From a virus: a stretch of DNA of 40,581 nucleotides. The position numbers were made by a program, and so were the translations under genes. Of this stretch, positions 6,974 through 39,687 are shown in pieces. The DNA is taken from IMG/VR virus record IMGVR_UViG_3300029268_002498, positions 1-40,581 of that record, one strand, 5' to 3'. Each line of letters starts with the position of its first letter. The stretch's first letter is position 1. The notes under the pieces are model-generated. The model did no database searches and was not told where the DNA came from. It saw only the letters and a list, made by a program, of their open reading frames with translations.

Positions 6974-7132
6974 ATGAAGAGATTTTTTGCTCAAAAGGAG
7001 GAACGATGTTCAAATTGTGAGTGTGATTTACCTAAAGGTAGTAATGTTTATATTAGCGAATATGACGATGTTTTATGTGAAGATTGCTTTGATGAAAGCG
7101 AGAGGGATTATAGAGGTGAGATTTATGGATAG
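6974..7132 (+). CDS. Small zinc-finger protein (52 aa)
   Basis: 52 residues with CSNCEC (12-17) and CEDC (35-38), a four-cysteine zinc-binding knuckle pair about 20 residues apart. Starts 4 bases after the previous stop in the tatATG context. Last gene before the structured region at 7135. Confidence 0.5.
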   Translation: MKRFFAQKEERCSNCECDLPKGSNVYISEYDDVLCEDCFDESERDYRGEIYG

Positions 7133-7134
7133 TA

Positions 7135-7246
7135 AGTCCTAATGGGATTTGGCAGAGAACGGGCGAAAGCCTGTTTTTTGCTATTAACCCGATGCCAAAC
7201 CCTAGACTAAAATGCTCTCGTAGCGGTGATCGGCACAAGTGCCTCC
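7135..7246 (+). ncRNA. Structured RNA region, including a terminator-like hairpin
   Basis: An outer stem pairs TGGGATTTGGCA (about 7143-7154) with TGCCAAACCCTA (about 7191-7202), 11 of 12 positions, and AGTC/GACT extends it. Inside is AACGGGC-GAAA-GCCTGTT (7158-7175) with a GNRA loop and six T's, a terminator by itself. A third arm downstream is GGTG-atc-GGCA-caag-TGCC-tc-CACC. It could be a leader RNA, an attenuator or part of a replication origin. No coding frame fits. Confidence 0.55.
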
Positions 7247-7285
7247 ACCTTCTCAAACCTTTAATTCTTACGCCTTAATATATGA

Positions 7286-7392
7286 ACCTGTAAATGAGGA
7301 GTTAACTCTATTATAAACAGATACTTAGCATTTTTAAGATGTAAATTGTTGTTTTACAGTTATTTCCTATATTTACAGGTATATTTACAGGT
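7286..7392 (+). repeat. Iteron-like ATTTACAGGT repeats
   Basis: Two exact tandem 12-mers, ATATTTACAGGT, lie at 7369-7380 and 7381-7392. The inverted core ACCTGTAAAT is at 7286-7295. Partial copies are TTTACAGT (7353-7360) and an inverted ATGTAAAT (about 7339-7346). They surround the start of a Replic_Relax-like gene, as iterons surround initiator genes in plasmids. The same stretch has mini-ORFs (ATG AAC CTG TAA, ATG AGG AGT TAA, ATG TAA). Confidence 0.55.
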
Positions 7393-8110
7393 TTTTTTGA
7401 AGAATAGAGTTGAACATTTAGAGTTAAAAGAGAAGTTAAGAGAGATAATACCTCTTAACGCCGGAGGAAGCTTTCAGCTTCTTTGGGAAATGCTATACAA
7501 TATCCGGCTCTTGAAATATGTTCACCAATCACAGCTAAGGCAGATAAATCCCCGATATTCAAAGATTTGTGCGACTGATAAACTCGAATATCTTGTTAAA
7601 TTAGGCTTATTGGAAAGCCCCAGAAAAGATGTTTACTTCGCTACCGAGAAAAGTACCCAGCCATTATGGGAAGAAAAATATCCCGTTAAAACCTTGCCAA
7701 AAATATCTTCCGGTCAGGGAGATATTAACCAGTTAAACAACACTGAAGTTTTTATCCAAGCTCTTAAACTACCCTTATTTAAGACTTTGCTCTATCCATA
7801 TTTTGATTATATTCTTCCAGACGCTTTACTTGTTTTAATGGATAAAGAGAAGTATAAATTAGAGTTTTTGGAAATTGAAGCCGGAAAGTCTAACTGGTCA
7901 GATTACATAGAAAATAAGAGAATTAATTACTTACAACTTGCCAATGATGAGCGAGTTTTTTCTTACTGGAAATCACAATGTGCTTATCTTAATATTAAAC
8001 CGCCTGATATTAAGGATTTTAAGTTTTCCGTTACTTTTGTCGGAAACATAACTAAAGAATTTGGGGCGGGATTTAAATTTATGGAGCAATTAGATGTCGA
8101 TTATTTCTGA
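7346..8110 (+). CDS. Replication-relaxation-like protein, second copy
   Basis: Up to 254 residues. The frame has no ATG before the folded domain. TTG at 7346 or 7349 is the nearest start; an ATT at 7310 with GAGGAG upstream is another possibility. Residues about 40-100 form a winged helix (LKYVHQSQLRQINPRYSK, then DKLEYLVKLGLLES). The C-terminal half has LPDALLV (157-163) and FLEIEAGKSNW (174-184), then K and Y, the PD-(D/E)XK-like signature shared with the protein at 919. It heads a block of four overlapping genes that ends in a VirD4/HerA-like ATPase. Role as initiator or nicking protein is inferred. Confidence 0.6.
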   Translation: MLFYSYFLYLQVYLQVFLKNRVEHLELKEKLREIIPLNAGGSFQLLWEMLYNIRLLKYVHQSQLRQINPRYSKICATDKLEYLVKLGLLESPRKDVYFATEKSTQPLWEEKYPVKTLPKISSGQGDINQLNNTEVFIQALKLPLFKTLLYPYFDYILPDALLVLMDKEKYKLEFLEIEAGKSNWSDYIENKRINYLQLANDERVFSYWKSQCAYLNIKPPDIKDFKFSVTFVGNITKEFGAGFKFMEQLDVDYF

Positions 8111-8684
8111 TTATTTGGACAAGAATAGAGATAGTTTAACCTGGGGGGAGATATTTCTTCCGGGTATTGGTTTAGGTTTATTAAGTCTTTGCATAGTTAA
8201 TCCCTTTTTTCATTTTAGTCTTTTTGAAAATTTTATCTTATATATCGGGTCTTATCTACTCGTATCTCTCTGTTTAGTATCTGCTAAACTTTATTTAAGG
8301 AAGATAGATAAAATCTCTAAATACAATATTGAGATTAAAAACGTTGGACTTAGATATGTTTATAATATAAACAAACGACTTCCTATTTTTATTTGTGAAC
8401 ATTGTTTAAAGACTAATATCGTTAAAAACTATAATCTTGTTTGTCCTTTTTGCGATTCTTCATTTGAAGTAGTTGATAATGATAGCGAAAAAATGATCGG
8501 GGACACTTATGTTAGAGGGTTGAGAAATTTTGCGAATGAATCTACAATTGAAAAAGTTTTGTTTGATAAATGCCCTGTTTGCGGAGGCAAAACTCAATAT
8601 GTTGGTTGTCAGCATTGCGGCGCAGACATAGATATGTTTAAGGAATATAACCACACAGCATTAGAAAATAAAAGATATGAATAA
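8094..8684 (+). CDS. Membrane protein with two zinc ribbons
   Basis: 196 residues. Two membrane segments at about 18-40 and 44-66 are joined by a short turn. The remainder is cytoplasmic or surface-exposed and carries CEHC...CPFC and CPVC...CQHC, two zinc ribbons. It starts 17 bases inside the previous gene and ends 8 bases inside the next, so it is co-translated with the relaxase-like and ATPase genes. It may anchor that machinery at the membrane; I know no family with this architecture. Confidence 0.6.
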   Translation: MSIISDYLDKNRDSLTWGEIFLPGIGLGLLSLCIVNPFFHFSLFENFILYIGSYLLVSLCLVSAKLYLRKIDKISKYNIEIKNVGLRYVYNINKRLPIFICEHCLKTNIVKNYNLVCPFCDSSFEVVDNDSEKMIGDTYVRGLRNFANESTIEKVLFDKCPVCGGKTQYVGCQHCGADIDMFKEYNHTALENKRYE

Positions 8685-9537
8685 ATTTAAAGCAAAATCT
8701 GAATTGAATTTACAGAAGTCAAGTTATCCGGTTGTTCAGAGTGGTAAAAATAATCTTGAGATAAAAGCGATACCCAAAGATGATTCGGAAGTTTGGGATT
8801 TTACTAAAATTACTATTCAAAAATTGGGTAAAGAACTTGAGAGTACTATAAATTCTAAAACCCCAATGTTTCTTTGGTCTAAAGAACGGCAGAATAACAA
8901 GATTAGGCTCGATAATGAGAAACAACTTTTTATATATGAAAAAATAAAAAACCTAAGGGCTATCGCTAGTGAGTTTAGTCAACTACAAGCAGACGCTATT
9001 TTTAGTGAACAATTTATTAAAAATCTCGTAGCTGAAAAGATATTATTAGCAGAGCAATATTTTGAAAGAATTAAAGAAGTTCATTTAACGGCTATATTGG
9101 CTGAACAAGCCAAGAGAAAACACATCGGGCACGAATTAACCGAGAGAGAAATAGCTCAACGAAAAGAGGAGGCTATTATAAGGAAATTAAATGGTGAAGC
9201 TGACCAAGCGGAAGCGAAAGCCGCAGAAATGAGAGCTATCGCAAAACAAGCAGAAGTTAGAGCTGATTTAATGAAAATAGCAACAGGAGAAGTTAAGTTT
9301 AGCGAACTACCGAAATCTTCTCAAACTTTTATTTTGATAAATATTTTAGATGCTGATCCAAATCATCTTAGTGATTTTGATATAAAAGAACAAATGAAAG
9401 ATATAATAATTCAACAAGGCAAGGCAGAAGCTGATATAAAAACAGCCGAAGCTGATAGTGCTAAAACAAAAAACGCCACAGAGGAATGGAAATTTGATAG
9501 AGATAAAAAATCGGTAGAGAAGAATGACCCCCGTTGA
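8677..9537 (+). CDS. Coiled-coil protein (286 aa)
   Basis: 286 residues. Residues about 80-210 are an Ala/Glu/Lys-rich predicted coiled coil (LTAILAEQAKRKHIGHEL, then GEADQAEAKAAEMRAIAKQA). The end (about 245-286) is a second helical, charged repeat. No signal peptide or membrane segment. It sits between the membrane protein and the ATPase with overlaps on both sides, which suggests a structural link between them. Confidence 0.6.
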   Translation: MNKFKAKSELNLQKSSYPVVQSGKNNLEIKAIPKDDSEVWDFTKITIQKLGKELESTINSKTPMFLWSKERQNNKIRLDNEKQLFIYEKIKNLRAIASEFSQLQADAIFSEQFIKNLVAEKILLAEQYFERIKEVHLTAILAEQAKRKHIGHELTEREIAQRKEEAIIRKLNGEADQAEAKAAEMRAIAKQAEVRADLMKIATGEVKFSELPKSSQTFILINILDADPNHLSDFDIKEQMKDIIIQQGKAEADIKTAEADSAKTKNATEEWKFDRDKKSVEKNDPR

Positions 9538-10735
9538 TTTTAATAGTTATTTATTAGAACTTGGGGAAAGACGTGCGTTCGAATCCGAGTTGCCCTATAT
9601 AACCGAATTAAAAACCAGATTTAACCACACCTACATTATAGGACGTTCCGGTATGGGTAAGTCCGTTTTAATGGAGTGTATGGCTGACTATGATATGAAT
9701 TTTGGTTTATCGATTTTATTCATAGACCCTAAAGGCGACAGCGTTAATAAACTAACAAAGAATAATAATTATCAGTACATTTCTTTTCAACACCCAGTGA
9801 AAATTAATCCTCTAAGGCGTAAAGGTTATAGCGTTGATACTCTTATCCGAGAGTTTACTGATGTTATGGATATTATGATTACTGCCACCTCGATTAATCC
9901 GGAGGCGACAGTCAGAATGAAAGAGATATTATCTAAAGCTATTAAGGGTTTCAGGGAAGAAGACCGCAGCTTAAAGTTTCTCAATGAGTTCCTTAGTTTC
10001 AAAGATGTCCGTAAGGCTTATAGTTTTCAAGACCCGATGATCCGCAAGTGGTTTAATGAAATAGAAGACACTTCTAAAAGCGGAATGAAAAAGACAAGCG
10101 ACTATATAAACACAATGTCCAGTATTGCCAGCCGATTATCTCAATTCTTAGATAATGACGAAATGAGCCAATTCATTACCGAAGAAGAAAACGTATTTGA
10201 TATTGAATCAGTTATAGAAAATGGTCAATCTCTTTTAATTAACACGAACACTAGCGATTCAGACAACCAGAAATTTTTATCCGCCCTTATCCTTTATGCG
10301 GTATTTTCTTATATAAAATCGAATACGGTCAAGAAGCCATTAATGATTTATATTGACGAATTTCAATCAAGTGTTAATTCAAGTTTCCCCTCATTACTTC
10401 AATACGCTCGAAGCTGTCAGGTAGGATTTACAATTAGCCACCACGATTTTTTAGAGATAGACAAAAAAGTCTTGAGTTCAATATTTGGTATTGTCAGTTC
10501 ATTTGTTGTTTTCAATTGCGGAGATACCGAAGCCGAAAGATTAGCCGGAATAGTGAGAGTAAAGAACGCTGATATTATGGACTTACCTGAATACCAAGCA
10601 TATTTACGGTTAGGCACAAAAAACAGTCTGATAAAAACATTTCCGCCCCTTCAAGAATCTCATACACCCCCTCCCCGTATCCAAGCAAAAGAACCTTTCT
10701 TTAGCTTTCTTTCAAATGACTGGATTGTGATATAA
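9524..10735 (+). CDS. VirD4/HerA-like DNA-pumping ATPase
   Basis: 403 residues. Walker A is GRSGMGKS (40-47), followed by FIDPKGD (67-73), typical of TraG/VirD4 coupling proteins, and Walker B is LMIYIDEF (273-280). A later SHHD (305-308) fits the sensor region. There is no N-terminal membrane segment, unlike classic VirD4; the membrane protein at 8094 could supply that part. Known relatives pump DNA in conjugation or in DNA end processing. The packaging motor is separately encoded (terminase, 13278), so this is a second DNA-translocating ATPase. Its stop lies within the promoter of the next transcript. Confidence 0.8.
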   Translation: MTPVDFNSYLLELGERRAFESELPYITELKTRFNHTYIIGRSGMGKSVLMECMADYDMNFGLSILFIDPKGDSVNKLTKNNNYQYISFQHPVKINPLRRKGYSVDTLIREFTDVMDIMITATSINPEATVRMKEILSKAIKGFREEDRSLKFLNEFLSFKDVRKAYSFQDPMIRKWFNEIEDTSKSGMKKTSDYINTMSSIASRLSQFLDNDEMSQFITEEENVFDIESVIENGQSLLINTNTSDSDNQKFLSALILYAVFSYIKSNTVKKPLMIYIDEFQSSVNSSFPSLLQYARSCQVGFTISHHDFLEIDKKVLSSIFGIVSSFVVFNCGDTEAERLAGIVRVKNADIMDLPEYQAYLRLGTKNSLIKTFPPLQESHTPPPRIQAKEPFFSFLSNDWIVI

Positions 10736-10736
10736 T
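10728..10736 (+). promoter_or_regulatory. Extended -10 promoter overlapping the ATPase stop
   Basis: TGATATAAT is a consensus extended -10 (TGnTATAAT). No clear -35 is seen 17 bases upstream. The predicted start is near 10743 and would transcribe the gene-free region that follows. Confidence 0.6.
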
Positions 10737-10742
10737 AAACAG

Positions 10743-10919
10743 GTCAAAACCTTCAAGGGAAGACCTTGTTTGAACCGGACTTGCCACAAAGCGCCAATAA
10801 TCCATTAAACATATCGCAAGATTAACGGACTGATAAAGTCTTAGTTTAAGTGGGAATGTCCACCGGTCTGGTTATGATGTGCCACGAAGTTGAGGACAAC
10901 GCTTTTAGCATATTATTTT
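10743..10919 (+). ncRNA. Candidate non-coding RNA after the ATPase gene
   Basis: About 175 bases with no convincing reading frame and their own promoter. Possible stems include AGGTC/GACCT near the 5' end, CTTC-aagg-GAAG within it, GACT/AGTC, GTGG/CCAC and GTTG-agga-CAAC near the 3' end, followed after a gap by T-rich sequence (10914-10921). No known RNA family is recognised. It may instead be a long leader for the HNH protein. Confidence 0.4.
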
Positions 10920-10950
10920 TTGACAACATTCGATAGAAGGCTAAGGAAAC

Positions 10951-10981
10951 TTGGCCTTTTATTTTATATCTATGCTATAAT
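10951..10981 (+). promoter_or_regulatory. Promoter of the HNH/primase-like unit
   Basis: TTGGCC (10951-10956), 19 bases, then TATAAT (10976-10981) with TG at 10973-10974. It has the best -10 in this area. It lies about 40 bases before the ATG that has a ribosome site. Confidence 0.6.
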
Positions 10982-11018
10982 GATGATAGAGTCCTTTTCA
11001 TCAACAATGAGGTGTACA

Positions 11019-11261
11019 ATGTGTAAAACACCAAAAATCTGTCCTACCTGTGGTAATAAAAAACCACTCACCCGACATCACATTTATCCTTGCCAATGGT
11101 ACCACGGAGCAGGTCCGACTTATAAACTATGTCGTGACTGCCACTCCGAGCTTGAGAGATATATCCCTCATAAATGGGTATTAACGACAAGAGAATGTAT
11201 GGATATTTTTCAATCATTTATTAACCTTAAAAAGGCGGTGTTAAAATGTCAGAATTTCTGA
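11019..11261 (+). CDS. Small HNH-like nuclease
   Basis: 80 residues. The start at 11019 is chosen because GAGGTG lies 4 bases upstream and the promoter's transcript begins about 30 bases before it. It contains CPTCG (8-12), RHHIYP and CRDCH, the core of a compact HNH fold with a structural zinc. Small HNH proteins occur near terminase genes in many phages, where they support packaging, or act as free homing nucleases. The stop overlaps the primase-like gene by 16 bases. Confidence 0.65.
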   Translation: MCKTPKICPTCGNKKPLTRHHIYPCQWYHGAGPTYKLCRDCHSELERYIPHKWVLTTRECMDIFQSFINLKKAVLKCQNF

Positions 11262-11974
11262 ATTTCAGCGAGATAAGCCAGAAGATACCTTTTAAAGAAG
11301 TATTAGACTGGTTAAACATACCCTATTCTGTTTATCAGAATGGAGAAATACGAGGCGAGGGATTTATCGTCAATCCCACCAAGAATCTTTATCTAAACCC
11401 TAAAGGAGATGACAAAGGAAGCGTCATAAACTTTCTAGCCAATCGTAAAGGGATAGATATAAGAAGCGCGGCGAAAGAGCTTAAGGACAAATTCTTGACC
11501 GAAGCCAAACCACCACAAAGAGAATTGCCTAATCTTGAATTACATTATTGTAAATTCTTAGAGGACAAAGGAATCCCGCAGGAATTTGCGAAAGAGTTTG
11601 AGATCGGGTTAGTTAAGCAACATTCTATTATTTCCGGCAGAATAGCTTTTAAAATTTATGATGAGCTTTCTATTCACACCGGCTATGTTGCCTACAATTT
11701 CCAAAAAGACGAATGGTTCTTTCCTAAAGGTTTCAAAAGAGAGCTTTACAATATCCACCGCATTACTCTTAATGAAGTTAATTTAACAGTTTCTATTTGG
11801 GAAACGATTGAACTTCTATTAAAAGGTATTGAAAGCGTTTCTTTAATCGGCAGAACAATGACTGATAAACAAGCCGAGCAATTAGCAAGGTTTAAAACAA
11901 TCATTGTTCATCATAGCGAGCCAGATAATATAATTGTCAGGTTAGCTAAAAATTCATTCGTAAAAGTATTTTAA
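11246..11974 (+). CDS. DnaG-type primase-like protein, degenerate
   Basis: 242 residues. Residues about 35-80 resemble the N-terminal domain of DnaG (PKGDDKGSVINFLANRKG) but lack the zinc cysteines. Residues about 120-230 resemble a primase core with a Toprim-like half (SIWETIELLLKG, then TIIVHHSEPDN), yet the acidic residues are not in the usual places. It may be an accessory or inactive primase relative that binds single-stranded DNA. A terminator follows at 11979. Confidence 0.55.
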   Translation: MSEFLNFSEISQKIPFKEVLDWLNIPYSVYQNGEIRGEGFIVNPTKNLYLNPKGDDKGSVINFLANRKGIDIRSAAKELKDKFLTEAKPPQRELPNLELHYCKFLEDKGIPQEFAKEFEIGLVKQHSIISGRIAFKIYDELSIHTGYVAYNFQKDEWFFPKGFKRELYNIHRITLNEVNLTVSIWETIELLLKGIESVSLIGRTMTDKQAEQLARFKTIIVHHSEPDNIIVRLAKNSFVKVF

Positions 11975-11978
11975 CAAT

Positions 11979-12000
11979 AGCCCCACTTAGGGGCTTTTTT
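11979..12000 (+). terminator. Rho-independent terminator
   Basis: AGCCCC-actta-GGGGCT followed by a T run that ends at 12001. Four bases after the primase-like gene. Confidence 0.9.
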
Positions 12001-12009
12001 ATTAAACAC

Positions 12010-12039
12010 TAGACACCCCACACGGGTGTATGGTATAGT
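12010..12039 (+). promoter_or_regulatory. Promoter with an internal inverted repeat; near-leaderless transcript
   Basis: TAGACA (12010-12015), 18 bases, then TATAGT (12034-12039) with TG at 12031-12032. Between them lies ACACCC-cacac-GGGTGT (12013-12029), a good operator position. The ATG of the next gene (12046) falls where transcription should start. Confidence 0.55.
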
Positions 12040-12045
12040 GAAATT

Positions 12046-12258
12046 ATGAACGAAGAATATCTAGCTTACCTAGATGATTTGAATAATGAAGAAAGAAGCG
12101 TTTTCTTATACCGCTTAGTTTTAAAACTCCCTACTGAAGATACAGCCAAACGATTACGTATTTCTTTTAAGAAAACACGATATATTTCTAAGATACTCAA
12201 AGAGCAGAAAGAACTTATGCTAATTAAGAACTATATCTATCAATCTTTTATTGGGTAA
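12046..12258 (+). CDS. Small HTH protein resembling sigma region 4
   Basis: 70 residues. LDDLNNEERSVFLYRLVLKL followed by PTEDTAKRLRISFKKTRYIS has the look of a sigma-70 region 4 or related helix-turn-helix. At this size it is more likely a regulator than a full sigma factor. It stands alone between two promoters, just before the late genes, so control of late transcription is possible but inferred. Confidence 0.5.
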   Translation: MNEEYLAYLDDLNNEERSVFLYRLVLKLPTEDTAKRLRISFKKTRYISKILKEQKELMLIKNYIYQSFIG

Positions 12259-12267
12259 AGGGCAATG

Positions 12268-12276
12268 TGATATAAT
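12268..12276 (+). promoter_or_regulatory. Extended -10 promoter before the late region
   Basis: TGATATAAT, identical to the one at 10728. No strong -35 is present. It would start the late transcript about 95 bases before the ATG at 12377. Confidence 0.6.
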
Positions 12277-12336
12277 ATAAATATAACCGGAAATCAATTC
12301 ACCTTATGGCGAACATTTCATTAAGTAATTTTTAAG

Positions 12337-12369
12337 GCATACAGGAGGCCAACTACCCCCTGTTTATGC
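12337..12369 (+). promoter_or_regulatory. Leader hairpin before the first late gene
   Basis: GCATACAGG pairs with CCTGTTTATGC (two bulged T's) around an 11-13 base loop that contains ggaggcc. It ends 7 bases before the ATG at 12377, so it could control translation of that gene. Confidence 0.45.
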
Positions 12370-12376
12370 TTGAATT

Positions 12377-12763
12377 ATGTATAAAGTATTTAAGAATATA
12401 CCTGACGGAATTTATGGAGGTTGCTTTACTCTCTTTATCGGAGATCACGCTAAAATGGAAAATAATTTAGCTATTTCATATAAAGGTGTATCCGTTCCAG
12501 ATGAAGGAAATTTAGGAGAGTTCTTTACTTTAGAAAATCCAGATAAGAGAATCGTTAATGTTATTTGGCTTGAGAAATATAAAAACTCTTTATTCGACCA
12601 AGGCGTTCTAGTCCACGAATTACAGCATTACACAATAAGAGAATTAAAACGGAGAGGATTTACTCTTAATACCGGAAGTGAGGAAGCCTATACTTATTTC
12701 TTAGAGAGCGTTTATAAAAATGCTTTATCTAAACTTACTAAAGGACTAAAAAATAAAAAGTAA
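12377..12763 (+). CDS. Putative zinc metallopeptidase
   Basis: 128 residues. It has HELQHY (near 80-85) preceded by hydrophobic GVLV, the HExxH zinc site, and a downstream SEEAYTYFLESVY whose glutamates could be the third ligand. Similar small phage metallopeptidase-like proteins lie next to terminase genes. The target is unknown. First gene of the late region, preceded by a promoter and hairpin. Confidence 0.55.
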   Translation: MYKVFKNIPDGIYGGCFTLFIGDHAKMENNLAISYKGVSVPDEGNLGEFFTLENPDKRIVNVIWLEKYKNSLFDQGVLVHELQHYTIRELKRRGFTLNTGSEEAYTYFLESVYKNALSKLTKGLKNKK

Positions 12764-14556: not shown

Positions 14557-16395
14557 ATGAAAACAGTCGACCAATTATTTGTCGATAAGATAATTAAAGA
14601 GCTTAACGATTACCAATCTGGAGATGTTTATATCACTGATAAGGTTAAGTTTAATCAATTTGATACAGTCAGGAAAATTATAACTCACCAGAATAACGGC
14701 TTTGAGAAAGCCAGCGATAAAAAGAGGTTCTTCTTTAATATCGGCAATTCAAGAGTCGATACAGTTTTAAAGAAGGTCGATATTGATACTAAAGATATTC
14801 AACTATACGCCGAAGGTGATAAGGTTGCTGAAAACATTTTGCTTAGAAGTGAATTAAGACAGTTTTTAAAAGAACATAAGTTTGGCAGGTTGATAAACGA
14901 ATTAGAGGAAATATATTGTGATTTTGGGAATGTAGTTACCAAGAAGAATGATAATGAATACTACACAAAGGTTAATCTTCAAAACTTAAAGGTAATCGAC
15001 CCGACCGCTGAAACTTTAGAGGACACGACTGTTATTGAAGAACACAAATATAACGCCACCGAGTTTAGACGAGAAGGATTAGCCAGAGGTTGGGACAATG
15101 TTGATAATACGATAACCGGTTTTAGTGATAACGAAACTACCCCTTATTTCTATGTCTATGAAAGATATGGAGAAATGAATTTAGCGGAATATAAAACTGC
15201 TAAAGGAGAACAGTTGACAGACGGTGACAATGATAAGTATATTGAAACAATCGCTATCGTAGCTATTAACCGCCCTAAACTAAGAAACCTTGTTTATAAT
15301 CAGTTAGACCAAATAGGGTTTAGTTATGGATATGTTTTATTCTTAGAGGAAAACAAGGGAGAGGTTTCAAGTGATGATAAACTTAAATTCAAACCATATA
15401 AAGAAGCGCATTTTGACGCTTATCAAGGACGCTGGTTTAGACGAGGTATTAGAGAAAAGTTATTTGATATTCAAGACCGCGCTAACATCTTAGGCAATCA
15501 GATTTACGAAGCAATGAAATGGTCAACCCTTCATTTGTTATGGAGTTCTGATAATAAGATTGCCGGACGGAATATCTTTAAGAGTTTAGAGCAAGGGCAG
15601 ATTATACAGGCTGATAACCTTAGTATATTGCCGATTGAAGAACGCAACTTAACCGCTTATGTGAATGAGTGGAATAAATTAATGGATTTGGCTGATCGTG
15701 AATGTCAGAGCTTTGAAGTAGCCACCGGAGAGGGATTACCATCAGGCACAACTCTAGGCACAGTTCAAATTCAGACCGCCACAGTTGGAGAACACTTTAA
15801 TTACAAGCGTGAGAAGTTTGGGCTATTCCTATCAGAGTTATTCAATGACTGGATACTTCCTGATTTAATTAGCGAGATAAACGAAGAACATATTTTAGAG
15901 ATAGAAGGCGACCCAGAGTATTTTGATCAATTCTTAGAAGTAGCCGCTAAAGGGATTATTGCTGAAAATCATTTGAAGATTGCCGCTCTTAATGGAGGTA
16001 TAGTTAATCAAGACCAATACGAACAGTTGAAAGAAGTAGTCAAACAAGGGCTTGCTAAAAACCCTAAACAGATTGTGAGTGTTATTAAGAATTACTACAA
16101 GAATATTCTCCCAAGAGTTGATGTCAATATTACTGGAGAGAGCGTTAACCAACAGAGCCGGATTACTAACGGAATGTCTTTACTTCCATATCTTACTAAC
16201 CCAATGGTAATGGCAGACCCAACCTCTAAAGGAATCGTTTTAGACATTGCTAATACTTTAGGCTTTAATGTTTCTAAGTCCGGCGCACAGCCAGCACAAC
16301 AGCCAATGGTTCAGAATGGACAACAGCAACAGCCACAAAATCAACAAACTAATCCGCAACAAGCCCCAAAGGCTAATGCGACACCCACAGTATGA
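14557..16395 (+). CDS. Portal protein
   Basis: 612 residues. Its position directly after the large terminase, its length, and the central helical region (EKLFDIQDRANILGNQIYEA) fit a podovirus-type portal: the dodecameric ring through which DNA enters and leaves. The last about 50 residues are Gln/Pro/Asn-rich and likely disordered. Residues 478-487 (LNGGIVNQDQ) are duplicated at the 3D/HNH junction. The stop overlaps the next ATG. Confidence 0.85.
   Translation: MKTVDQLFVDKIIKELNDYQSGDVYITDKVKFNQFDTVRKIITHQNNGFEKASDKKRFFFNIGNSRVDTVLKKVDIDTKDIQLYAEGDKVAENILLRSELRQFLKEHKFGRLINELEEIYCDFGNVVTKKNDNEYYTKVNLQNLKVIDPTAETLEDTTVIEEHKYNATEFRREGLARGWDNVDNTITGFSDNETTPYFYVYERYGEMNLAEYKTAKGEQLTDGDNDKYIETIAIVAINRPKLRNLVYNQLDQIGFSYGYVLFLEENKGEVSSDDKLKFKPYKEAHFDAYQGRWFRRGIREKLFDIQDRANILGNQIYEAMKWSTLHLLWSSDNKIAGRNIFKSLEQGQIIQADNLSILPIEERNLTAYVNEWNKLMDLADRECQSFEVATGEGLPSGTTLGTVQIQTATVGEHFNYKREKFGLFLSELFNDWILPDLISEINEEHILEIEGDPEYFDQFLEVAAKGIIAENHLKIAALNGGIVNQDQYEQLKEVVKQGLAKNPKQIVSVIKNYYKNILPRVDVNITGESVNQQSRITNGMSLLPYLTNPMVMADPTSKGIVLDIANTLGFNVSKSGAQPAQQPMVQNGQQQQPQNQQTNPQQAPKANATPTV
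15988..16018 (+). repeat. 31-bp portal-gene segment copied at 4823-4853
   Basis: Exact match in frame and orientation to 4823-4853. It lies inside an intact portal gene, so this is the likely source or target copy. Confidence 0.9.
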
Positions 16396-32871: not shown

Positions 32872-34170
32872 ATGCTTACACCAGAACAGATTAATCAAAT
32901 AAGAGCTAAGAGCGGTTTAGCTCCGCTTACTCAAACAAATAACGCAAAATCTAGTCTTGTTGGAAAATATGATTACTTGAAACAGCCTACTCAAGAGAAA
33001 GGTTTTGTCGATAATGTTAAAGAGTCAGCTTCAAAAAGATTAGGAGATGCTAAGCAAGCTTTAAGCGGTGATGTTAATCCATTATCCGCTGGACTTCAAT
33101 TTTGGGGAGCAGGCGCGGGAATGATTAATGAGGTAATTGGAGCAGGAATTAATAAAGTTGCGCCTATTATTCCAGAAACAATTGGCAAAGTTGCCAGTAA
33201 GGTAATTAATACCGAACCTGCTCAAAAATTTATTTCTTCTTATCAAGATTTTAAAGCTAAACACCCCGAGGCTGCCAAAGACTTAGAATCGGCTACAAAT
33301 ATACTTTCTTTACTACCAACCGGTAAAGCCGTTGAAGTTGGAACTAATGCCGTTAAAACCGGTGCTGAAATTACGGGAAATGTTGTTAAAAGTACACTAT
33401 CAAATAGCGGTAAGGTTTTAGAGAAAGCCGGAGAAAAGATATTTACTCCGGCAATACCTTTAAGCAAATCAGAAGCCGGGTTAGTCCAAACTTATAGAGC
33501 GAAAAACCCTTTGTTACAAAGATTATTTCAGCCTATTGCGGAAAAACCAAGAACAGCAGCTATTACAGCCCTTGATAAAGGTTTTGTTGGGTCAGAGCAA
33601 ATGATCGGCGTTCAAGCCAATAAAGAAGCTGTCAATTTATGGAAAAACACTATCGCTCCGGCTGTTAGAAGTATTACTCAAAAATATGATATTCAGGGAG
33701 CTATTAAATCTATTGAATCTAAAGTAGCCACTATTTCAGAACAATCAAGAAAAAAGTCATTATTAGAGGCAGTACAATCTCTTAAAGAAGATTATAAGGG
33801 AGTGTCTAGTATCTCATTTGAAAAAGCGCAAGAAATTAAATCTCAATTAGCTAAGTTTATCCCTGAAAAAGCCTATCAAGGAAAACCTATTGGTAGCTCT
33901 TTTAAAGAGGTTCAAAATTTATTAGCTGATGATATACGCCAAAAAACTTATAATGTTTTAAGTGATGTAAATATAAAATCAGACTACCTTGATTATGGTA
34001 ATCTTTTGAAATTACAAGAGTTCGGACAAAAGGCAATGACAGGAGCTAAGTCAAAGGCTGGTTTTGGTTCATTTATTACAAACCTTTACGATACCGCAAC
34101 CGTTCCGATCAGAACTGTAATCGGACAAGGGTTAAATAAGGGAGGAAAAATTCTACAAAAGATTAAATAG
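32872..34170 (+). CDS. Internal virion/ejection-type protein
   Basis: 432 residues, starting 1 base after the previous gene. Its first third has Gly/Ala-rich, mildly hydrophobic stretches (AGLQFWGAGAGMINEVIGAGI). The rest is helical, with a Gly-rich hydrophobic end. It pairs with the lysozyme-domain protein, as ejection proteins do in podoviruses. No enzyme motif seen. Last gene of the late region. Confidence 0.55.
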   Translation: MLTPEQINQIRAKSGLAPLTQTNNAKSSLVGKYDYLKQPTQEKGFVDNVKESASKRLGDAKQALSGDVNPLSAGLQFWGAGAGMINEVIGAGINKVAPIIPETIGKVASKVINTEPAQKFISSYQDFKAKHPEAAKDLESATNILSLLPTGKAVEVGTNAVKTGAEITGNVVKSTLSNSGKVLEKAGEKIFTPAIPLSKSEAGLVQTYRAKNPLLQRLFQPIAEKPRTAAITALDKGFVGSEQMIGVQANKEAVNLWKNTIAPAVRSITQKYDIQGAIKSIESKVATISEQSRKKSLLEAVQSLKEDYKGVSSISFEKAQEIKSQLAKFIPEKAYQGKPIGSSFKEVQNLLADDIRQKTYNVLSDVNIKSDYLDYGNLLKLQEFGQKAMTGAKSKAGFGSFITNLYDTATVPIRTVIGQGLNKGGKILQKIK

Positions 34171-34238
34171 AATCGATAACAAATCGTACTACAAAAAGGA
34201 TAAATAAAGCTATTAAAATTGTTTCAATCATATATTAT

Positions 34239-34262
34239 TAGAGGGCGTTAAGCCCTCTTTTA
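34239..34262. terminator. Bidirectional terminator between late and leftward genes
   Basis: AGAGGGC-gttaa-GCCCTCT with T's on the plus side (TTTTAT) and A's before it. It can end both the late rightward transcript and the leftward operon. Confidence 0.75.
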
Positions 34263-34322
34263 TGTTAATTATAGAGCCACACAAGCCCCGTATAGAGGTT
34301 TTAGACTAAAAGCAGTACATTA

Positions 34323-34484
34323 TCACATTCTCTCAAAATAAGCCTCATTTTCTTTAATCTTTTTTGTGTAAAAACTAATCTGACGAGCAATAGTATCTTT
34401 ATCTGATTGAGTTTTAACTTTTGCCAATTTTTTAGACAGCTTCATTAGCTCGATTGAGCTACTGTCTAGGGCTATTAAGCGCAT
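34323..34484 (-). CDS. Small helical protein, last of the leftward operon
   Basis: 53 residues, highly charged helix (MKLSKKLAKVKTQSDKD, then RQISFYTKKIKENEAY). Its ATG overlaps the stop of the zinc-ribbon gene by 10 bases. No motif recognised. Confidence 0.45.
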   Translation of the reverse strand: MRLIALDSSSIELMKLSKKLAKVKTQSDKDTIARQISFYTKKIKENEAYFERM

Positions 34485-34792
34485 ATCTTAAAATCTTTAT
34501 TTATTATCTTAAACTTATCCGACATAAACATCGCTTCGCATTTATCACATTTGTAGTAAGCATTATAATAGTAAGGCTTGTTTAATTTCTTTTTATTAAA
34601 GGGACTTTCTTTAAGATGAATTATACCAGTACATTTAGGACAATCCATTCCGTCTATGTATTCAGTTTTTCTTTTTGTTGGCTCAAATTGAATTTCATTA
34701 CCGCACATAATACAAGTGGCGATAATTAGATTGTCATTTTTTTCAAACTTCCAATTATTTTCCAGACACTTTCCGCACGGACGCATTGCCAT
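34475..34792 (-). CDS. Double zinc-ribbon protein (105 aa)
   Basis: 105 residues with three cysteine pairs or more: CGKC (6-9), CIMC, CPKC and CDKC. Basic overall. It overlaps the RHH gene's end by 38 bases. A nucleic-acid or polymerase contact is possible; no family recognised. Confidence 0.55.
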   Translation of the reverse strand: MAMRPCGKCLENNWKFEKNDNLIIATCIMCGNEIQFEPTKRKTEYIDGMDCPKCTGIIHLKESPFNKKKLNKPYYYNAYYKCDKCEAMFMSDKFKIINKDFKICA

Positions 34793-34949
34793 ATTTTTTA
34801 TAATAATTTATTATTTCTTTTAACATCCCTGATTTACTTTTTTTCTCTTTGATTCCGTCAATATATAATAAATCTTCTGGGCAAATTCCAATAGTGCTAG
34901 TGTAAATACTTAGTTTAAAATCTCTTGTCTTATGTTTGTTTTGTTTCAT
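34755..34949 (-). CDS. RHH-type regulator, first gene of the leftward operon
   Basis: 64 residues. IYTSTIGICPEDLLYIDGIK, then KSKSGMLKEIINYYKKY, follows the strand-helix-helix pattern of CopG/Arc-like repressors. Directly upstream is a triple half-site repeat (34951-34972), which suggests self-repression. Confidence 0.55.
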   Translation of the reverse strand: MKQNKHKTRDFKLSIYTSTIGICPEDLLYIDGIKEKKSKSGMLKEIINYYKKYGNASVRKVSGK

Positions 34950-34950
34950 A

Positions 34951-34972
34951 CTACTTTAACTACTTGAAGTAG
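34951..34972. promoter_or_regulatory. Operator-like triple half-site before the RHH gene
   Basis: CTACTT-taa-CTACTT-g-AAGTAG: one direct and one inverted copy of a 6-base half-site, starting 2 bases upstream of the leftward RHH gene's ATG. RHH proteins usually bind such short repeats. Confidence 0.5.
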
Positions 34973-35152
34973 CCCCACACCTACATCCGTTTCCTTCTAT
35001 GAGCTATTAGTATGATTAGGTAACGTGTTATGGTAGGGGTTTATCAAAACTTGTTTTATTCTCTTAAAAGGTTTTAGTGTAAATGTGTTAATGAACAATC
35101 TTTTAGCTCGGCGTTAGGTATCCGTGTGTATAGGGGAAGGGTCTAATTATTT

Positions 35153-35186
35153 AAAGTCGTTCTCCCTTTATGTGGCACGACTTTTT
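35153..35186 (+). terminator. Terminator-like hairpin in the control region
   Basis: AAAGTCG and CGACTTT enclose an 18-base loop; five T's follow on the plus strand. No rightward gene precedes it, so it may end an unseen RNA or stop antisense transcription. Confidence 0.55.
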
Positions 35187-35240
35187 GTTCTTAAATGGGA
35201 GTTGAACCCATAAAATATTTTGTCACCGGACTTAAGTTAT

Positions 35241-35356
35241 AAAAAATAGAGTTCTGGATTAATCAATCCGCCTATCGGAGGGGTCTAGCTTCCAAACAGG
35301 CAGATATGGAGATTAGTCCATAACTCTACTTTCAAGACCCCTCTTTATTTTTACTT
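35241..35356 (-). ncRNA. Structured candidate RNA with its own promoter and terminator
   Basis: Read leftward from the promoter at 35390-35363, about 115 bases. Near the start, GAGGGGTCT (35343-35335) pairs perfectly with AGACCCCTC (35286-35278). TAGAGTT (35328-35322) pairs with AACTCTA (35253-35247), followed by six U's (35246-35241). The two stems cross, so they form a pseudoknot or switch. Inner hairpins are UAUGGA/UCCAUA and GGAUU/AAUCC, with GCCU/AGGC. It could be a sRNA, an antisense regulator or a riboswitch-like attenuator of the leftward operon. Confidence 0.6.
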
Positions 35357-35362
35357 ATTAAC

Positions 35363-35390
35363 AGTATAGCACATTAAAAAAACCTGTCAA
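35363..35390 (-). promoter_or_regulatory. Near-consensus leftward promoter
   Basis: On the minus strand: TTGACA, 16 bases, TATACT, with TG one base before the -10. It is the best match to sigma-70 consensus in the window. Transcription would begin near 35356, into the structured RNA. Confidence 0.8.
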
Positions 35391-35429
35391 TACCCTTTAT
35401 TTATTGATTTTTTTGACTATTTTTGAAGT

Positions 35430-36362
35430 ATGACTATTACTTTAAAAGCTGAAAAACTAAGTTTTCCACCGGAAGGAAAGATATACGAAGTCAATCCGGA
35501 GGAAAAAATCCCCCAACTCCACTATGAAAAGGAGGCAGGTAAACTATACCTTGGAGATAGTGTTATTTGGTTAAATACGCTTGAAAATGAGAGTATTGAC
35601 CTTATTTTTGCCGATCCACCATATAATATTAAAAAAGCTGACTGGGATAACTTTAAATCTCAAGAAGAATACATAAAATGGTCAATGAGTTGGATTGAAG
35701 TTTCCTATAAAAAGCTTAAAAAAAATGGCACTTTATACATTTGTGGTTTTTCGGAGATTTTAGCAGATTTAAAGCACCCAGCTTCAAAACTTTTTAAAAG
35801 TTGTAAATGGTTAGTTTGGCACTATAAAAATAAAGCCAATATGAGTAGTGATTGGGGAAGATCGCACGAAAGCCTTTTACATCTAAGGAAGTCTAAAGAA
35901 TTTACTTTTAATGTTGATGATATTCGTATTCCTTATAGTAAACATACTCTTAAATATCCCTCGCACCCACAGGCAGAAACCAGTCAATTTGGAAATGGTA
36001 AACAACATATTTGGACTCCGCATCCTAACGGTTCAAAACCAAAAGATGTTATAGAACTTCCAACGACTTGTAACGGATCAGGAGAATCGTCAGTTCACCC
36101 CACACAAAAACCAGAGGAATTAGTTAGGAAATTTGTTTTTGTTTCCTCTAATGAAGGTGATTTAGTAGTTGACCCTTTTTCCGGTTCAGGAACAACCGCA
36201 GTTGTAGCCGAACAGTTAGGTAGAAAATGGTTAGTTTGCGACAGAGATTTCGAATACAATAAATTGGCAATTCACAGATTAGAGCAAACTTTTTATCGAC
36301 CAAAAGAATATTGGATTGATTTAGATAGAAAAACTCAACAACGAAGGGAATCTATTAGGTGA
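35430..36362 (+). CDS. Type II DNA methyltransferase, beta class
   Basis: 310 residues. The catalytic DPPYNI (62-67) comes before the SAM site FSGSGTT (250-256), the order of beta-class amino methyltransferases (N6-adenine or N4-cytosine; DPPY is commoner for adenine). HPTQKPEELV just before motif I also fits. It protects phage and lysogen DNA at the site cut by the next gene's product. Its stop overlaps the endonuclease GTG start by 4 bases (GTGA). Confidence 0.9.
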   Translation: MTITLKAEKLSFPPEGKIYEVNPEEKIPQLHYEKEAGKLYLGDSVIWLNTLENESIDLIFADPPYNIKKADWDNFKSQEEYIKWSMSWIEVSYKKLKKNGTLYICGFSEILADLKHPASKLFKSCKWLVWHYKNKANMSSDWGRSHESLLHLRKSKEFTFNVDDIRIPYSKHTLKYPSHPQAETSQFGNGKQHIWTPHPNGSKPKDVIELPTTCNGSGESSVHPTQKPEELVRKFVFVSSNEGDLVVDPFSGSGTTAVVAEQLGRKWLVCDRDFEYNKLAIHRLEQTFYRPKEYWIDLDRKTQQRRESIR

Positions 36363-37261
36363 GATTAAATGAACTTGTTTCAACTGCTATTGTCAAAGAC
36401 AATTTTTTAACCATTCAAAAATATATTGACTTCACGCTTAATTATTTAGAGTTTATAGCAGACACTAATAATATTCAAGCAACTATCATTTCTCAAAATG
36501 AAAATCATTATCAATTTATTCAATATAAAAAAGACGGTTCGTTTAATGTTACTAGACCTCTTAACTCTAAACTTATGTTGGAACTTGAAGATTTTGATAA
36601 TTCAACTAAAAGTTTCCTGGAACTAATAGCTAATATTAAAAAGTCAAAACATAATACTCCCGAATTAAGAAAACTGCTTAATAATTTTGTTTACACTATT
36701 CAGCAATCTATTGGTTCTGTTTTAGACGCTCTACCGGCTAACCGTTCTAATACCGCTCGAAAGATTAATGGAGATTTGTTTGAAAGACTTATTAGAATTC
36801 TTTTGAATGAAATAGGGATTTGTTGTACATCGGGAGTAATTTATATCCCAGTCAAAATAGGTGATGAAGTAGCTTTTAGAATGAGCTATCAACACGACCT
36901 TATTATTAAGGACGGAGAAGTTTTAAAGGCTATCGGTTCAGTTAAAACTTCTAGTAAAGACCGGATAGATAAAATTTTTATTGATAAATTTTTATATAGC
37001 AAATTGACCGATACTACAATTCCTCACTTTGCGGTTTTCTTAAATGACGTTCAGAGAAAGAATACTAAAACAGAGGGCAAATATGGAATTAACTCAACAT
37101 TTCTACCCGGGCACTTTAAAGGATATACTATTAAGCTTAATCCTTTAGACGGTGTTTATTATTGTGATATACGACCCAATATGATTACAGAGGCTATATT
37201 AAAAGATCATATAAAGACTTTTGATAATCTCTTATTCAAAGATATTTGGGATTTTATTTAA
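36359..37261 (+). CDS. Putative type II restriction endonuclease
   Basis: 300 residues, GTG start. A PD-(D/E)XK-like core is suggested by GDLFERLI (138-145), QHDLIIKDG (178-186) and GSVKTSSKDR (193-202), where D180 and K196 would be catalytic. The SVKTS-KDR pattern recurs in several type II enzymes. Tight overlap with the methyltransferase supports a restriction-modification pair. The recognition site cannot be read from sequence. Confidence 0.75.
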   Translation: MRLNELVSTAIVKDNFLTIQKYIDFTLNYLEFIADTNNIQATIISQNENHYQFIQYKKDGSFNVTRPLNSKLMLELEDFDNSTKSFLELIANIKKSKHNTPELRKLLNNFVYTIQQSIGSVLDALPANRSNTARKINGDLFERLIRILLNEIGICCTSGVIYIPVKIGDEVAFRMSYQHDLIIKDGEVLKAIGSVKTSSKDRIDKIFIDKFLYSKLTDTTIPHFAVFLNDVQRKNTKTEGKYGINSTFLPGHFKGYTIKLNPLDGVYYCDIRPNMITEAILKDHIKTFDNLLFKDIWDFI

Positions 37262-37279
37262 TATATATTTTGGAGTTTT

Positions 37280-37624
37280 ATGAATTATCAAGAATTAACT
37301 AAGAAGTCTACTGAAAAATCTCAGGAGATTATATTCAAATTGAATTTTGATGAGCTTAAACAGGATTCATTGTTAAATCTATTCCATTATAATTTTTTGG
37401 AATATATTAACGAAAAAGTTTGTCAGGTTATTTTAAATCTTTCCTTACAAGATGTTAAGAATAGACCACATTATGATATTCTTTACGGTTATTCTATTAA
37501 AGGTCAAAATGATGCTTTCCTCCAATACGCAAGTAAAATTTGTGATGTAGATAATATTTTTAATTTAGTTGCTACTAGTATGGAAACCAGAATGAAACAA
37601 ATTTATGATTCTGTTCCTAAATAA
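37280..37624 (+). CDS. Hypothetical protein after the restriction enzyme
   Basis: 114 residues, helical, acidic, no recognisable motif. It has GGAG 5 bases before the ATG and lies 18 bases after the endonuclease, so it may belong to the same operon, perhaps as a control or accessory protein. No helix-turn-helix is evident. Confidence 0.55.
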   Translation: MNYQELTKKSTEKSQEIIFKLNFDELKQDSLLNLFHYNFLEYINEKVCQVILNLSLQDVKNRPHYDILYGYSIKGQNDAFLQYASKICDVDNIFNLVATSMETRMKQIYDSVPK

Positions 37625-37648
37625 ATAAAGACATTTACTTTCCTAAAG

Positions 37649-37678
37649 AGCGTGGTATAATAATATATATCACGCTTT
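37649..37678 (+). promoter_or_regulatory. Overlapping terminator and promoter
   Basis: AGCGTG (37649-37654) pairs with CACGCT (37671-37676), followed by seven T's: a terminator for the preceding unit. Its loop includes TATAAT (37656-37661) with TG at 37653-37654, an extended -10 for the next gene. Confidence 0.6.
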
Positions 37679-37682
37679 TTTT

Positions 37683-38045
37683 ATGGCTAAATCTAAAGCC
37701 TACTATCGAAGGATAGCAGACAGACTATATCAAGAAATAGGAAGAAAGAATTATGATAAGTGCTTAGTTTGCGGTAATCCTGTTTCTTGCCTACATCATT
37801 ACTTCCCAAAATCCTCAGCCGGAAACCTCCGGTATAACTTTTCTAACGGAATACCAGTTTGTCAGGGTTGCCATTTTAGACATCATAACGGCTATCCTGA
37901 AATACATAATGCCATTAACTTTATAATGGGTTCTGATTGGTTAAATAAGCTTAGAGAAGAAAAAAAGACTTTCATTAAATGCGATACAATTGGTTATTAC
38001 CAAGACAAGATTGATGAACTTAAAGAAATATTAGGTAATCCTTAG
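37683..38045 (+). CDS. NinG/Rap-like HNH protein
   Basis: 120 residues. CLVCGNPV and CLHHYFPKS, then GIPVCQGCHFRHHNG, form a zinc-stabilised HNH-type core resembling lambda NinG (Rap), a recombination-stage nuclease. A helix tail follows (about 85-120). It could instead be a homing-type nuclease. Driven by the -10 inside the terminator hairpin. Confidence 0.6.
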   Translation: MAKSKAYYRRIADRLYQEIGRKNYDKCLVCGNPVSCLHHYFPKSSAGNLRYNFSNGIPVCQGCHFRHHNGYPEIHNAINFIMGSDWLNKLREEKKTFIKCDTIGYYQDKIDELKEILGNP

Positions 38046-38140
38046 ACAATCTTCCAATCATTTCTAATCGTTTCCAAAGTACCTTAAAATCCCTATAAAT
38101 ATTTTGTATCCGTAATCATTAATAATATACGAGGTATAAA

Positions 38141-38332
38141 ATGGCTAAGACATTATTAGGCGAAATCGCTATCCAGATATTTGGACTTAAAAGGAAAAAA
38201 TATCAACCACGCCGAAACCCAAGAGATAAAGCTTACGAACAATTTCAATATAAGATGAAAGAAGCAGCGTTCGAGGCTAAAAAAGAGTTCGAGATAGCAA
38301 AACTTAAAGCCAAAAGTAAAGGCTGGACTTAA
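38141..38332 (+). CDS. Small basic protein (63 aa)
   Basis: 63 residues, rich in Lys and Arg, with a central helix (YEQFQYKMKEAAFEAKKEF). A ribosome site (gagg) precedes the ATG. It lies between NinG-like and excisionase genes. DNA binding is possible from charge only. Confidence 0.5.
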   Translation: MAKTLLGEIAIQIFGLKRKKYQPRRNPRDKAYEQFQYKMKEAAFEAKKEFEIAKLKAKSKGWT

Positions 38333-38358
38333 GCGGCGCAACTAAAATGTGCCAGCAA

Positions 38359-38391
38359 TAAAAAGCCCCTTACCATTAAGAATAAGGGGCT
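38359..38391 (-). terminator. Leftward terminator after the excisionase gene
   Basis: On the minus strand AGCCCCTTA pairs with TAAGGGGCT, followed by five T's. A 9-bp perfect stem with a 10-base loop. Confidence 0.8.
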
Positions 38392-38403
38392 GAAAACGAA
38401 TAG

Positions 38404-38429
38404 GCCATTAACCATTACGAATTAATGGC
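38404..38429. repeat. Second hairpin overlapping the excisionase stop
   Basis: GCCATTAA pairs with TTAATGGC. Its loop, CCATTACGAA, is almost the same as the loop of the neighbouring terminator (CCATTAAGAA), suggesting duplication of the hairpin. Confidence 0.55.
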
Positions 38430-38613
38430 TTATTCTTTTAATAGGTCTTGTAGCTTTGGCTTTGAGTGTAGCCAGTAAGACATCTTTATCAAAGAAGATA
38501 CTATTAGCAAGTTTGAAGTAGCCGGGGATACTATCTTTCGATAAATAAACCCATTTACTACTCTTACCGAGTAATTGAGCAACTTCTTTGACGGTTAGAT
38601 AGGGAGTGGTCAT
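38422..38613 (-). CDS. xis: Excisionase-like HTH protein
   Basis: 63 residues. YLTVKEVAQLLGKSSKWVY, then IPGYFKLANSIFFDKDVLLATL, is the winged HTH_17 fold of phage excisionases and related DNA-bending proteins. It is divergent from the integrase with a 120-base shared control region, as in many temperate phages. It would steer integrase toward excision. A role as a simple regulator is also possible. Confidence 0.75.
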   Translation of the reverse strand: MTTPYLTVKEVAQLLGKSSKWVYLSKDSIPGYFKLANSIFFDKDVLLATLKAKATRPIKRISH

Positions 38614-38675
38614 ATAAACCTCTATGCTCCCGAACCACCTTTATTTTGTTTTACAAAGACGCACACCACCAAACC

Positions 38676-38681
38676 ATTATA
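38676..38681 (-). promoter_or_regulatory. Leftward -10 box for the excisionase gene
   Basis: TATAAT on the minus strand, 63 bases upstream of the excisionase ATG. A weak TTGGTA sits 15 bases upstream. The 120 bases between excisionase and integrase also carry the integrase ribosome site (aaaggag, 38718-38724). Confidence 0.5.
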
Positions 38682-38733
38682 CTACCTATTAAATTTTACC
38701 AATAGCAATTTAACAACAAAAGGAGTATTAACA

Positions 38734-39687
38734 ATGCCCGTTTATAATAGAAAACTCAGCAAGGGAATTAAATTTTACTATTCATTCACTTTTAATAGTA
38801 GAGTTTACTTCTCGAAATGTATTTATCTCTCTAAAAGAGAAGCCCAACAAGCAGAACGTGAAAGATTCACTCAGCTTGACGAAGAAAGAAGATTTGGCAA
38901 GCAGGACAAACCTCTTTACCTAATCGAAGTGATAGAAGATCGGCTTAAATTCTTATCTGTGAAATACAGCAAGAGTCATAAAGACGACAGCAAGTATTAT
39001 CTTGACCTTTTTTCTGACTTTATAGGGAATAAAGAAATCAGGGATATTACTAGAAAAGAAGTCGAAGAATTTTTGCTTGATTATTCTAATACCTTGCTTA
39101 AAAACGGAGTTGATAATTATCAGGTAAACGCTGCGCTAAAATCTATCAAGTCAATGTTCAATTATGTCATTGAGAGTTATGATCTTGTGATTAAAAATCC
39201 TTGTAAGAATATCAAACCTTTTTCAGTCAGAAAGAAACTTAAATATATCCCGACTGATGAGGAAATTGAGAAACTTAAAGGTCTGATAAACGACCGCCAA
39301 AAGCTCTTGATTAATTTCGTGATGGAAACTGGTTGCCGGATTAATGAAGCTCTCAATTTGGACTTCAAGGACATTAACGACACCTACCTTGTTTTCTATA
39401 CAAGGAAGTCAAAGAACAGCGATAGAGTACCAAGAAAGGTTCCTATTCCGGATAGCATCAAAGGACTAAAGGGAAAAGGTAAAGTATTCCCAGAATGGAC
39501 TGAAACGCCTAAGTTTTTAGATAAGGCTTTAAGGGGAGAGAAGTTAAGAGTTTGGGGTTGGCACGCATTGAGACACCGTTACGCTTCATTACTTTCCAAG
39601 CAAGGAAAACCTATTTTTGAGATTATGAGCCTATTGGGTCATAGCCAATTAAAGACTACTCAAATCTATCTTCAATTGCTTTCCTGA
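38734..39687 (+). CDS. int: Tyrosine-family integrase
   Basis: 317 residues: arm-binding N-terminus (1-60), core-binding domain (about 65-160), catalytic domain (170-317). Catalytic residues: R202 (GCRINEAL), K225 (TRKSKN), H277 and R280 (HALRH), H303 (LGHS) and the nucleophile Y312 (TTQIYLQ). Ribosome site aaaggag 9 bases upstream. It lies 88 bases from the 3' end of tRNA-Asp, the usual place of an integrase that uses a tRNA gene. Confidence 0.95.
   Translation: MPVYNRKLSKGIKFYYSFTFNSRVYFSKCIYLSKREAQQAERERFTQLDEERRFGKQDKPLYLIEVIEDRLKFLSVKYSKSHKDDSKYYLDLFSDFIGNKEIRDITRKEVEEFLLDYSNTLLKNGVDNYQVNAALKSIKSMFNYVIESYDLVIKNPCKNIKPFSVRKKLKYIPTDEEIEKLKGLINDRQKLLINFVMETGCRINEALNLDFKDINDTYLVFYTRKSKNSDRVPRKVPIPDSIKGLKGKGKVFPEWTETPKFLDKALRGEKLRVWGWHALRHRYASLLSKQGKPIFEIMSLLGHSQLKTTQIYLQLLS

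Follow-up and report, generated by a model that had tools for sequence, protein, structure and literature searches.

The window, by which we mean the whole stretch of DNA analysed (an IMG/VR virus record of 40,581 bp with 35% GC), encodes a small structured RNA of ~115 nt on its minus strand, beside the integrase module. Both the RNA and its fold are very probably real and are well supported by the homologues described below. Taken as a whole, the observations are best explained by a free-standing, pseudoknotted RNA which would bind a protein in trans, a reading held with moderate confidence. The RNA apparently represents a new, undescribed family of a known general kind, namely the small structured RNAs of mobile elements.

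Gene layout and fold of the RNA

A near-consensus TTGACA/TATACT promoter, noticed before in a sequence-only reading of the same DNA, was confirmed on the minus strand with the -35 box TTGACA at 35390-35385, a 16-nt spacer and TATACT at 35368-35363. It ranks first of the 22 promoter-like sites in 34100-38800 (shuffled sequences yield 20.4 in all). The 5' end of the RNA was placed according to the promoter position and the 3' end is the predicted U-run. By sequence, the gene has the features of an intrinsically terminated sRNA, i.e., its own promoter, no ORF, a terminator hairpin and a U-run. The features are as follows, in the order of transcription:

35363..35390, minus strand: promoter, TTGACA, 16 nt, extended -10 TGC-TATACT; 11/12 sigma-70 matches
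35241..35357, minus strand: whole predicted ncRNA gene, start at ~35357, end in the U-run; z = -4.4 and homologues found with covariance models (CM) R1 and R2
35345-35241, minus strand: modelled core of the RNA
35335..35343, minus strand: pseudoknot 5' strand GAGGGGUCU; 9/9 pairs with 35286-35278, 11 and 12 bp in homologues
35322..35333, minus strand: P1 5' strand GAAAGUAGAGUU; partner 35253-35242, 5/12 pairs changed on both sides, every cell paired
35311..35320, minus strand: 5' side of the middle rod, with UGGA (X; partner 35258-35255) and the invariant UAAUC (partner 35264-35260)
35306..35310, minus strand: 5-nt bulge (Y, UCCAU); alternative partner AUGGA at 35321-35317 as a local hairpin
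35297..35305, minus strand: P3 5' strand (9 bp); partner 35274-35266, 6/9 pairs changed on both sides
35292..35296, minus strand: UUUGG, unpaired linker from P3 to the pseudoknot; present in all copies
35278..35286, minus strand: pseudoknot 3' strand AGACCCCUC, in the P3 apical loop
35266..35274, minus strand: P3 3' strand, paired with the P3 5' strand
35255..35264, minus strand: 3' side of the middle rod, with the invariant GAUUA and with UCCA (Z); paired with the 5' side of the rod
35242..35253, minus strand: P1 3' strand, with the U-run forming the terminator; U-run in every copy

The pseudoknot 5' strand is separated by a 1-nt linker from P1, which is followed by a mismatch, the X-Z pairing, a further mismatch, UAAUC/GAUUA, the 5-nt bulge and P3. 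After the P3 5' strand come the UUUGG linker, the pseudoknot 3' strand, 2-4 nt and the P3 3' strand. The two stems of the ~115 bases which had been described as impossible to nest were found again: GAGGGGTCT (35343-35335) with AGACCCCTC (35286-35278) crosses TAGAGTT (35328-35322) with AACTCTA (35253-35247). The second of them is indeed a terminator stem, AACTCTA being followed directly by TTTTTT at 35246-35241.

The 117-nt window RNA folds at z = -4.4, a value equalled by 0/200 shuffles. No other crossing pair of Watson-Crick helices of this kind occurs in the window, and shuffles give 0.2 such pairs per 40 kb; at this chance rate a single sequence only suggests a pseudoknot, and its reality was settled by the conserved homologues. 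With the pseudoknot stacks, the energy is about -54 to -56 kcal/mol (before loop penalty, with nearest-neighbour stacking values from general knowledge added to the computed fold) versus -35.5 to -38.5 kcal/mol without them. X and Y can pair as a local hairpin in 18/20 cells over four copies, which is no better than in shuffled controls and, hence, weak support; this hairpin is a possible folding intermediate or part of a two-state switch.

Homologues and compensatory changes

The covariance model R1 was made from the window sequence alone with the nested rod, and the pseudoknot was left out. A search with R1 over 294 genomes of the class Ignavibacteria gave two full-length matches, with E-values of 1.8e-7 and 2.8e-6 (genomes G048 and G294), and both keep the pseudoknot with changed letters though it is outside the model. 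With the window integrase as query, relatives were found in 18/391 genomes, and a third homologue (locus L150 of genome G345) was found beside an integrase of 71% identity. An improved model, R2, found a fourth homologue in G424, a genome with the same element as G048. Including the window, the RNA is known from five loci with three clearly distinct sequences; the loci are labelled L123, L179 and L178 for G048 and G424, L124 and L180 for G294, and L150 for G345. The pseudoknot strands read GAGGGGUCU/AGACCCCUC in the window, GACGGGGGAAC/GUUCCCCCGUC in G048 and GACGGGACUAGC/GCUAGUCCCGUC in G294.

All three integrases with 71-74% identity have the RNA at a distance of 1.1-2.0 kb; in the window, it lies 3.4 kb from the integrase with the RM genes in between. 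About 20 integrase loci with ≤ 56% identity had no RNA in the flanks examined, some of which end at contig ends. R2 gave no further convincing member over 391 genomes of the class and 335 of the phylum, and BLAST among phages and plasmids gave nothing or one 25-nt chance match. In IMG/VR, the exact pseudoknot pattern occurred in 11 contigs, all judged to be chance, and conserved-core patterns were found in 0 and 3 stretches with no family member among them. One R2 match in genome G470 (L186 1501-1572, minus strand; 34.6 bits, 72 nt) was rejected as a chromosomal terminator without P3 or pseudoknot, probably matched by chance; it carries UGGA-CGAAUC-UCCA and GUUUGUGG.

Compensatory changes over homologues, which the sequence-only reading had named as the check to be made, are present in the nested and in the crossing part of the fold. 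For the nested structure, 97.5% of the cells of four aligned copies form standard pairs and 13/30 pairs are changed on both sides, compared to 4.3 in shuffles (0/500 as high), and slid-alignment controls are 42-50% paired. These counts lean towards the related R1 structure, to which the four copies were aligned. The pseudoknot is absent from both R1 and R2; taken alone in the three distinct sequences, 27/27 cells are paired and 4/9 pairs are changed on both sides, which shuffles match 2-4 times in 500. By comparison of these sequences, the pseudoknot, P1 and P3 are shown to be supported by compensatory changes.

Sixteen of the paired cells are G.U, where the opposite strand would have A.C, and R2 scores 98-108 bits on the RNA strand versus 31-34 bits on the opposite strand. 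Both observations indicate that selection acts on the leftward RNA. They also bear on an extremely improbable alternative, according to which the sequence acts as DNA, either as a folded single-stranded site for recombination and cargo exchange or as a cruciform at the edge of a defence slot. The position, always between the integrase module and variable cargo, would suit such a site, and so would the quasi-palindromic sequence, due to which the reverse strand scores at all. However, the G.U cells favour one strand as RNA, and promoter and U-run flank the structure in the correct order in every copy.

Each copy of the RNA (L123, L178, L150, L124 and the window) has its own promoter and a run of U. 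The homologue promoters occupy the same position and read TTGACA-17-TAAAAT in L123 and L178, similarly in L150, and TTGTCA-16-TATACT in L124. An insulating terminator and nothing else, placed between divergent or convergent modules, is a very improbable reading: the form of an intrinsic terminator and the location at module borders agree with it, but P3 and a compensating pseudoknot of 9-12 bp on the 5' side would be needless for insulation, as would a promoter 19-26 nt upstream of the pseudoknot 5' strand.

Genomic surroundings of the RNA

The window contains terminase, major head and tail genes, and its tyrosine integrase gene (38734-39687) adjoins a tRNA-Asp. The exact tRNA-Asp was found in 20 stretches of GTDB genomes, mostly Ignavibacteria, and in one of them the flanking host gene of the window lies beside the same tRNA (31% identity over 182 aa). 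These matches indicate that the record is most likely a phage integrated in an Ignavibacteria host. No relatives of the window MCP were found in genome contigs or in the 391 genomes of the class.

A small-gene operon (34949-34323) lies 290 nt downstream of the RNA on the same strand. Its 64-aa ORF, earlier termed RHH, is without a meaningful match in Pfam or NCBIfam, and its 105-aa ORF has only a weak zinc-ribbon similarity; a search for relatives of the 105-aa and 432-aa neighbour proteins found none. The sequence-only reading had proposed that the RNA may control this operon and that the first stem could block the terminator. Such a cis-acting leader, i.e., a conditional terminator (riboswitch or attenuator) with the pseudoknot blocking termination, is rather improbable. 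It gains from the window, where no other promoter for the operon was scored on that strand, from L124, where a same-strand ORF begins after 370 nt, and from the related phage locus L149, where the promoter GGGTATTGACA...GTGCTATACTG feeds a small-gene leader without the RNA. In G048 and G424, however, the RNA and its terminator are retained with the next same-strand gene 1.8 kb off (L123 and L178), and in G345 (L150) there is none, the RNA running convergently into a Gabija operon. Thus, two of the three other distinct loci are without a close same-strand gene, so that the function shared by the copies is not that of a cis-acting switch and the RNA stands alone. The downstream genes also vary between loci.

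Control of the operon as a common role is therefore not supported, and neither is the proposed block of the terminator: pseudoknot and P1 use different strands, are conserved together in every copy and are geometrically compatible, rather than being mutually exclusive as terminator and antiterminator. No conserved antiterminator consumes a P1 strand, and the alternative hairpin X-Y leaves P1 uninvolved. From the earlier comparison with riboswitches and pseudoknotted sRNAs, the pseudoknotted RNA with its own promoter and terminator stands on the compensatory changes, while the riboswitch finds no support at the loci without a same-strand gene nearby. Judged from these gene arrangements, the RNA is a free-standing small RNA and not a riboswitch or leader. 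Read-through from the RNA into the small genes is a possibility confined to the window.

At all loci, the RNA gene borders on variable cargo and points away from the integrase module. The contents of the slot are:

window 35430-37261: type II RM pair; REase model E 7.7e-106
L123 11633-15099 (G048/G424): IetA/IetS
L150 1896-13251 (G345): type III RM, Septu PtuAB and Gabija GajAB
L124 12776-13741 (G294): CARF protein
L149 5196-8855: restriction-type helicase and MTase; RNA absent

These contents make the slot a defence hotspot, and the RNA marks its integrase-side edge. The phage L149 (integrase 68%) is the nearest phage relative and has the same backbone without the RNA; the equivalent promoter GGGTATTGACA...GTGCTATACTG is found at the matching place (5088-5050, minus strand) and leads into a different, small-gene leader. 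A tie of the RNA to the RM system was considered and rejected. Eight MTase relatives (61-65% identity, five with the same REase) have no detectable RNA upstream, and the RNA copies elsewhere adjoin other cargo.

The elements in G048/G424 and G294 share the early module (889-12763) and the integrase module of the window. Relatives of terminase, portal, capsid or tail genes were absent from the stretches examined, and in G048 host-type genes restart ~23.5 kb from the tRNA-Asp. With this organisation, they are satellite-like or defective relatives of the window phage.

Two further observations were made near the RNA. Upstream of it, G048, G424 and G345 have a second promoter (TTGACA...TATAAT) leading into two tandem GUCC...GGAC hairpins, after which the promoter of the RNA follows (L123 9575-9660, L178 2098-2184, L150 ~14005-13925); this arrangement is absent from the window and L124. 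A small ORF beside the RNA in L150 (14111-14431) has similarity to the superinfection exclusion protein SieB at E 2.9e-5, a match that narrowly misses the Pfam cut-off.

Possible function and relation to known RNAs

From its strong predicted promoter, the RNA would be produced constitutively in the lysogen. P3 and the pseudoknot, stacked over 18-21 bp, may pack alongside the lower rod of 23 positions, with the 5-nt bulge connecting the two at one end and the 1-nt linker at the other; a turn at the bulge would allow pseudoknot and terminator to coexist. Such packing would hide the 5' end and, together with the 3' terminator, give a stable, compact RNA resistant to degradation. The RNA might then bind a protein in trans, as scaffold or decoy, on behalf of the element, e.g., for maintaining the integrated state or for gene control. 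Protein binding in trans is tentatively favoured over base-pairing to a target, because UUUGG, UAAUC/GAUUA and GAAAG stay constant whereas the letters of the pseudoknot change freely; with three clearly distinct sequences to compare, the constancy of UUUGG and UAAUC/GAUUA argues only weakly for a binding site.

The CI RNA of P4 pairs with its own leader transcript. An antisense or immunity RNA of this type, stopping expression by pairing with a transcript of the element or of a superinfecting phage, is an unlikely reading here. Like P4 CI RNA and the sRNAs controlling lysogeny, the RNA is small and located near the control genes of an integrated phage or satellite; it is terminated, has its own promoter and adjoins the lysogeny (integrase/excisionase) module. 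There are also short stretches of complementarity, e.g., AGACCCUUC in the downstream leader of the window itself. However, these stretches are scattered in a chance-like manner at non-equivalent places in each element, and no complementary target common to the three elements compared was found, in contrast to P4 CI RNA with its pairing target. The pseudoknot strands differ among elements, so that an antisense seed at this site is disfavoured, though other parts of the RNA might still act as antisense. The pairing of GAGGGGUCU with AGACCCUUC at ~35140 was rejected as a candidate, since it is confined to the window and no equivalent was established in a homologue. The region past the terminator (35132-35215, minus strand) contains a T-arm-like hairpin, an AAGUCGU/ACGACUU hairpin and AGACCCUUC; no tRNA was called at the T-arm-like hairpin (~35195-35211).

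At gathering score, Rfam 15 detected only the tRNA in the window. A relaxed search returned chance-level matches (e.g., BTH_s39 with 15.2 bits versus a cut-off of 77), the homologues of the RNA gave no match up to E 0.5, and a literature search on non-coding RNA of Ignavibacteria prophages found no paper. ToxI of type III toxin-antitoxin systems is a small H-type pseudoknot RNA on mobile elements and linked to defence. The RNA described here resembles it in these respects but is a single unit without tandem repeats and has different neighbours; a ToxN-like gene downstream of the RNA was not recognised at any locus. In HDV-like ribozymes, P1 has 7 bp, and the partner of the 5' strand is in a loop region closed by a second helix. 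The topology is similar, whereas the pseudoknot of the present family is variable with 9-12 bp, P3 surrounds the 3' strand and no Rfam ribozyme matches, so that the predicted structure argues against membership. GOLLD and ROOL are structured RNAs of phages and prophages with unknown function, and ROOL is predicted to have pseudoknots and has no known protein partner (PMC12286853). They share with the window RNA the structured, non-coding nature and the location on phages or prophages, ROOL also the pseudoknots, but they are several hundred nt long and often near tRNA islands, compared to ~115 nt and no model match here.

Beyond the model phages, little is known about the small RNAs of mobile elements, and nothing similar is present in Rfam. 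The present RNA occurs in a phage and in virion-less elements of the same backbone, where whole defence systems are swapped. It is doubtful, and offered as speculation, that this new family is integral to a chassis of phages and satellites with interchangeable defence systems, where the RNA, together with a protein, would silence the element, control the slot or govern the relation between the phage and its virion-less relatives. With its exact, mutable pairs, the RNA is a defined starting point for studying self-control and cargo control in such elements.

In the ORF 4535-5131 elsewhere in the window, a secreted-protein-like N-terminus is fused to an HNH-type C-terminus. The two parts meet across 31 bp (4823-4853) that exactly repeat a stretch (15988-16018) of the gene at 14557-16395. 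The repeat suggests an HNH insertion or a recombination event.
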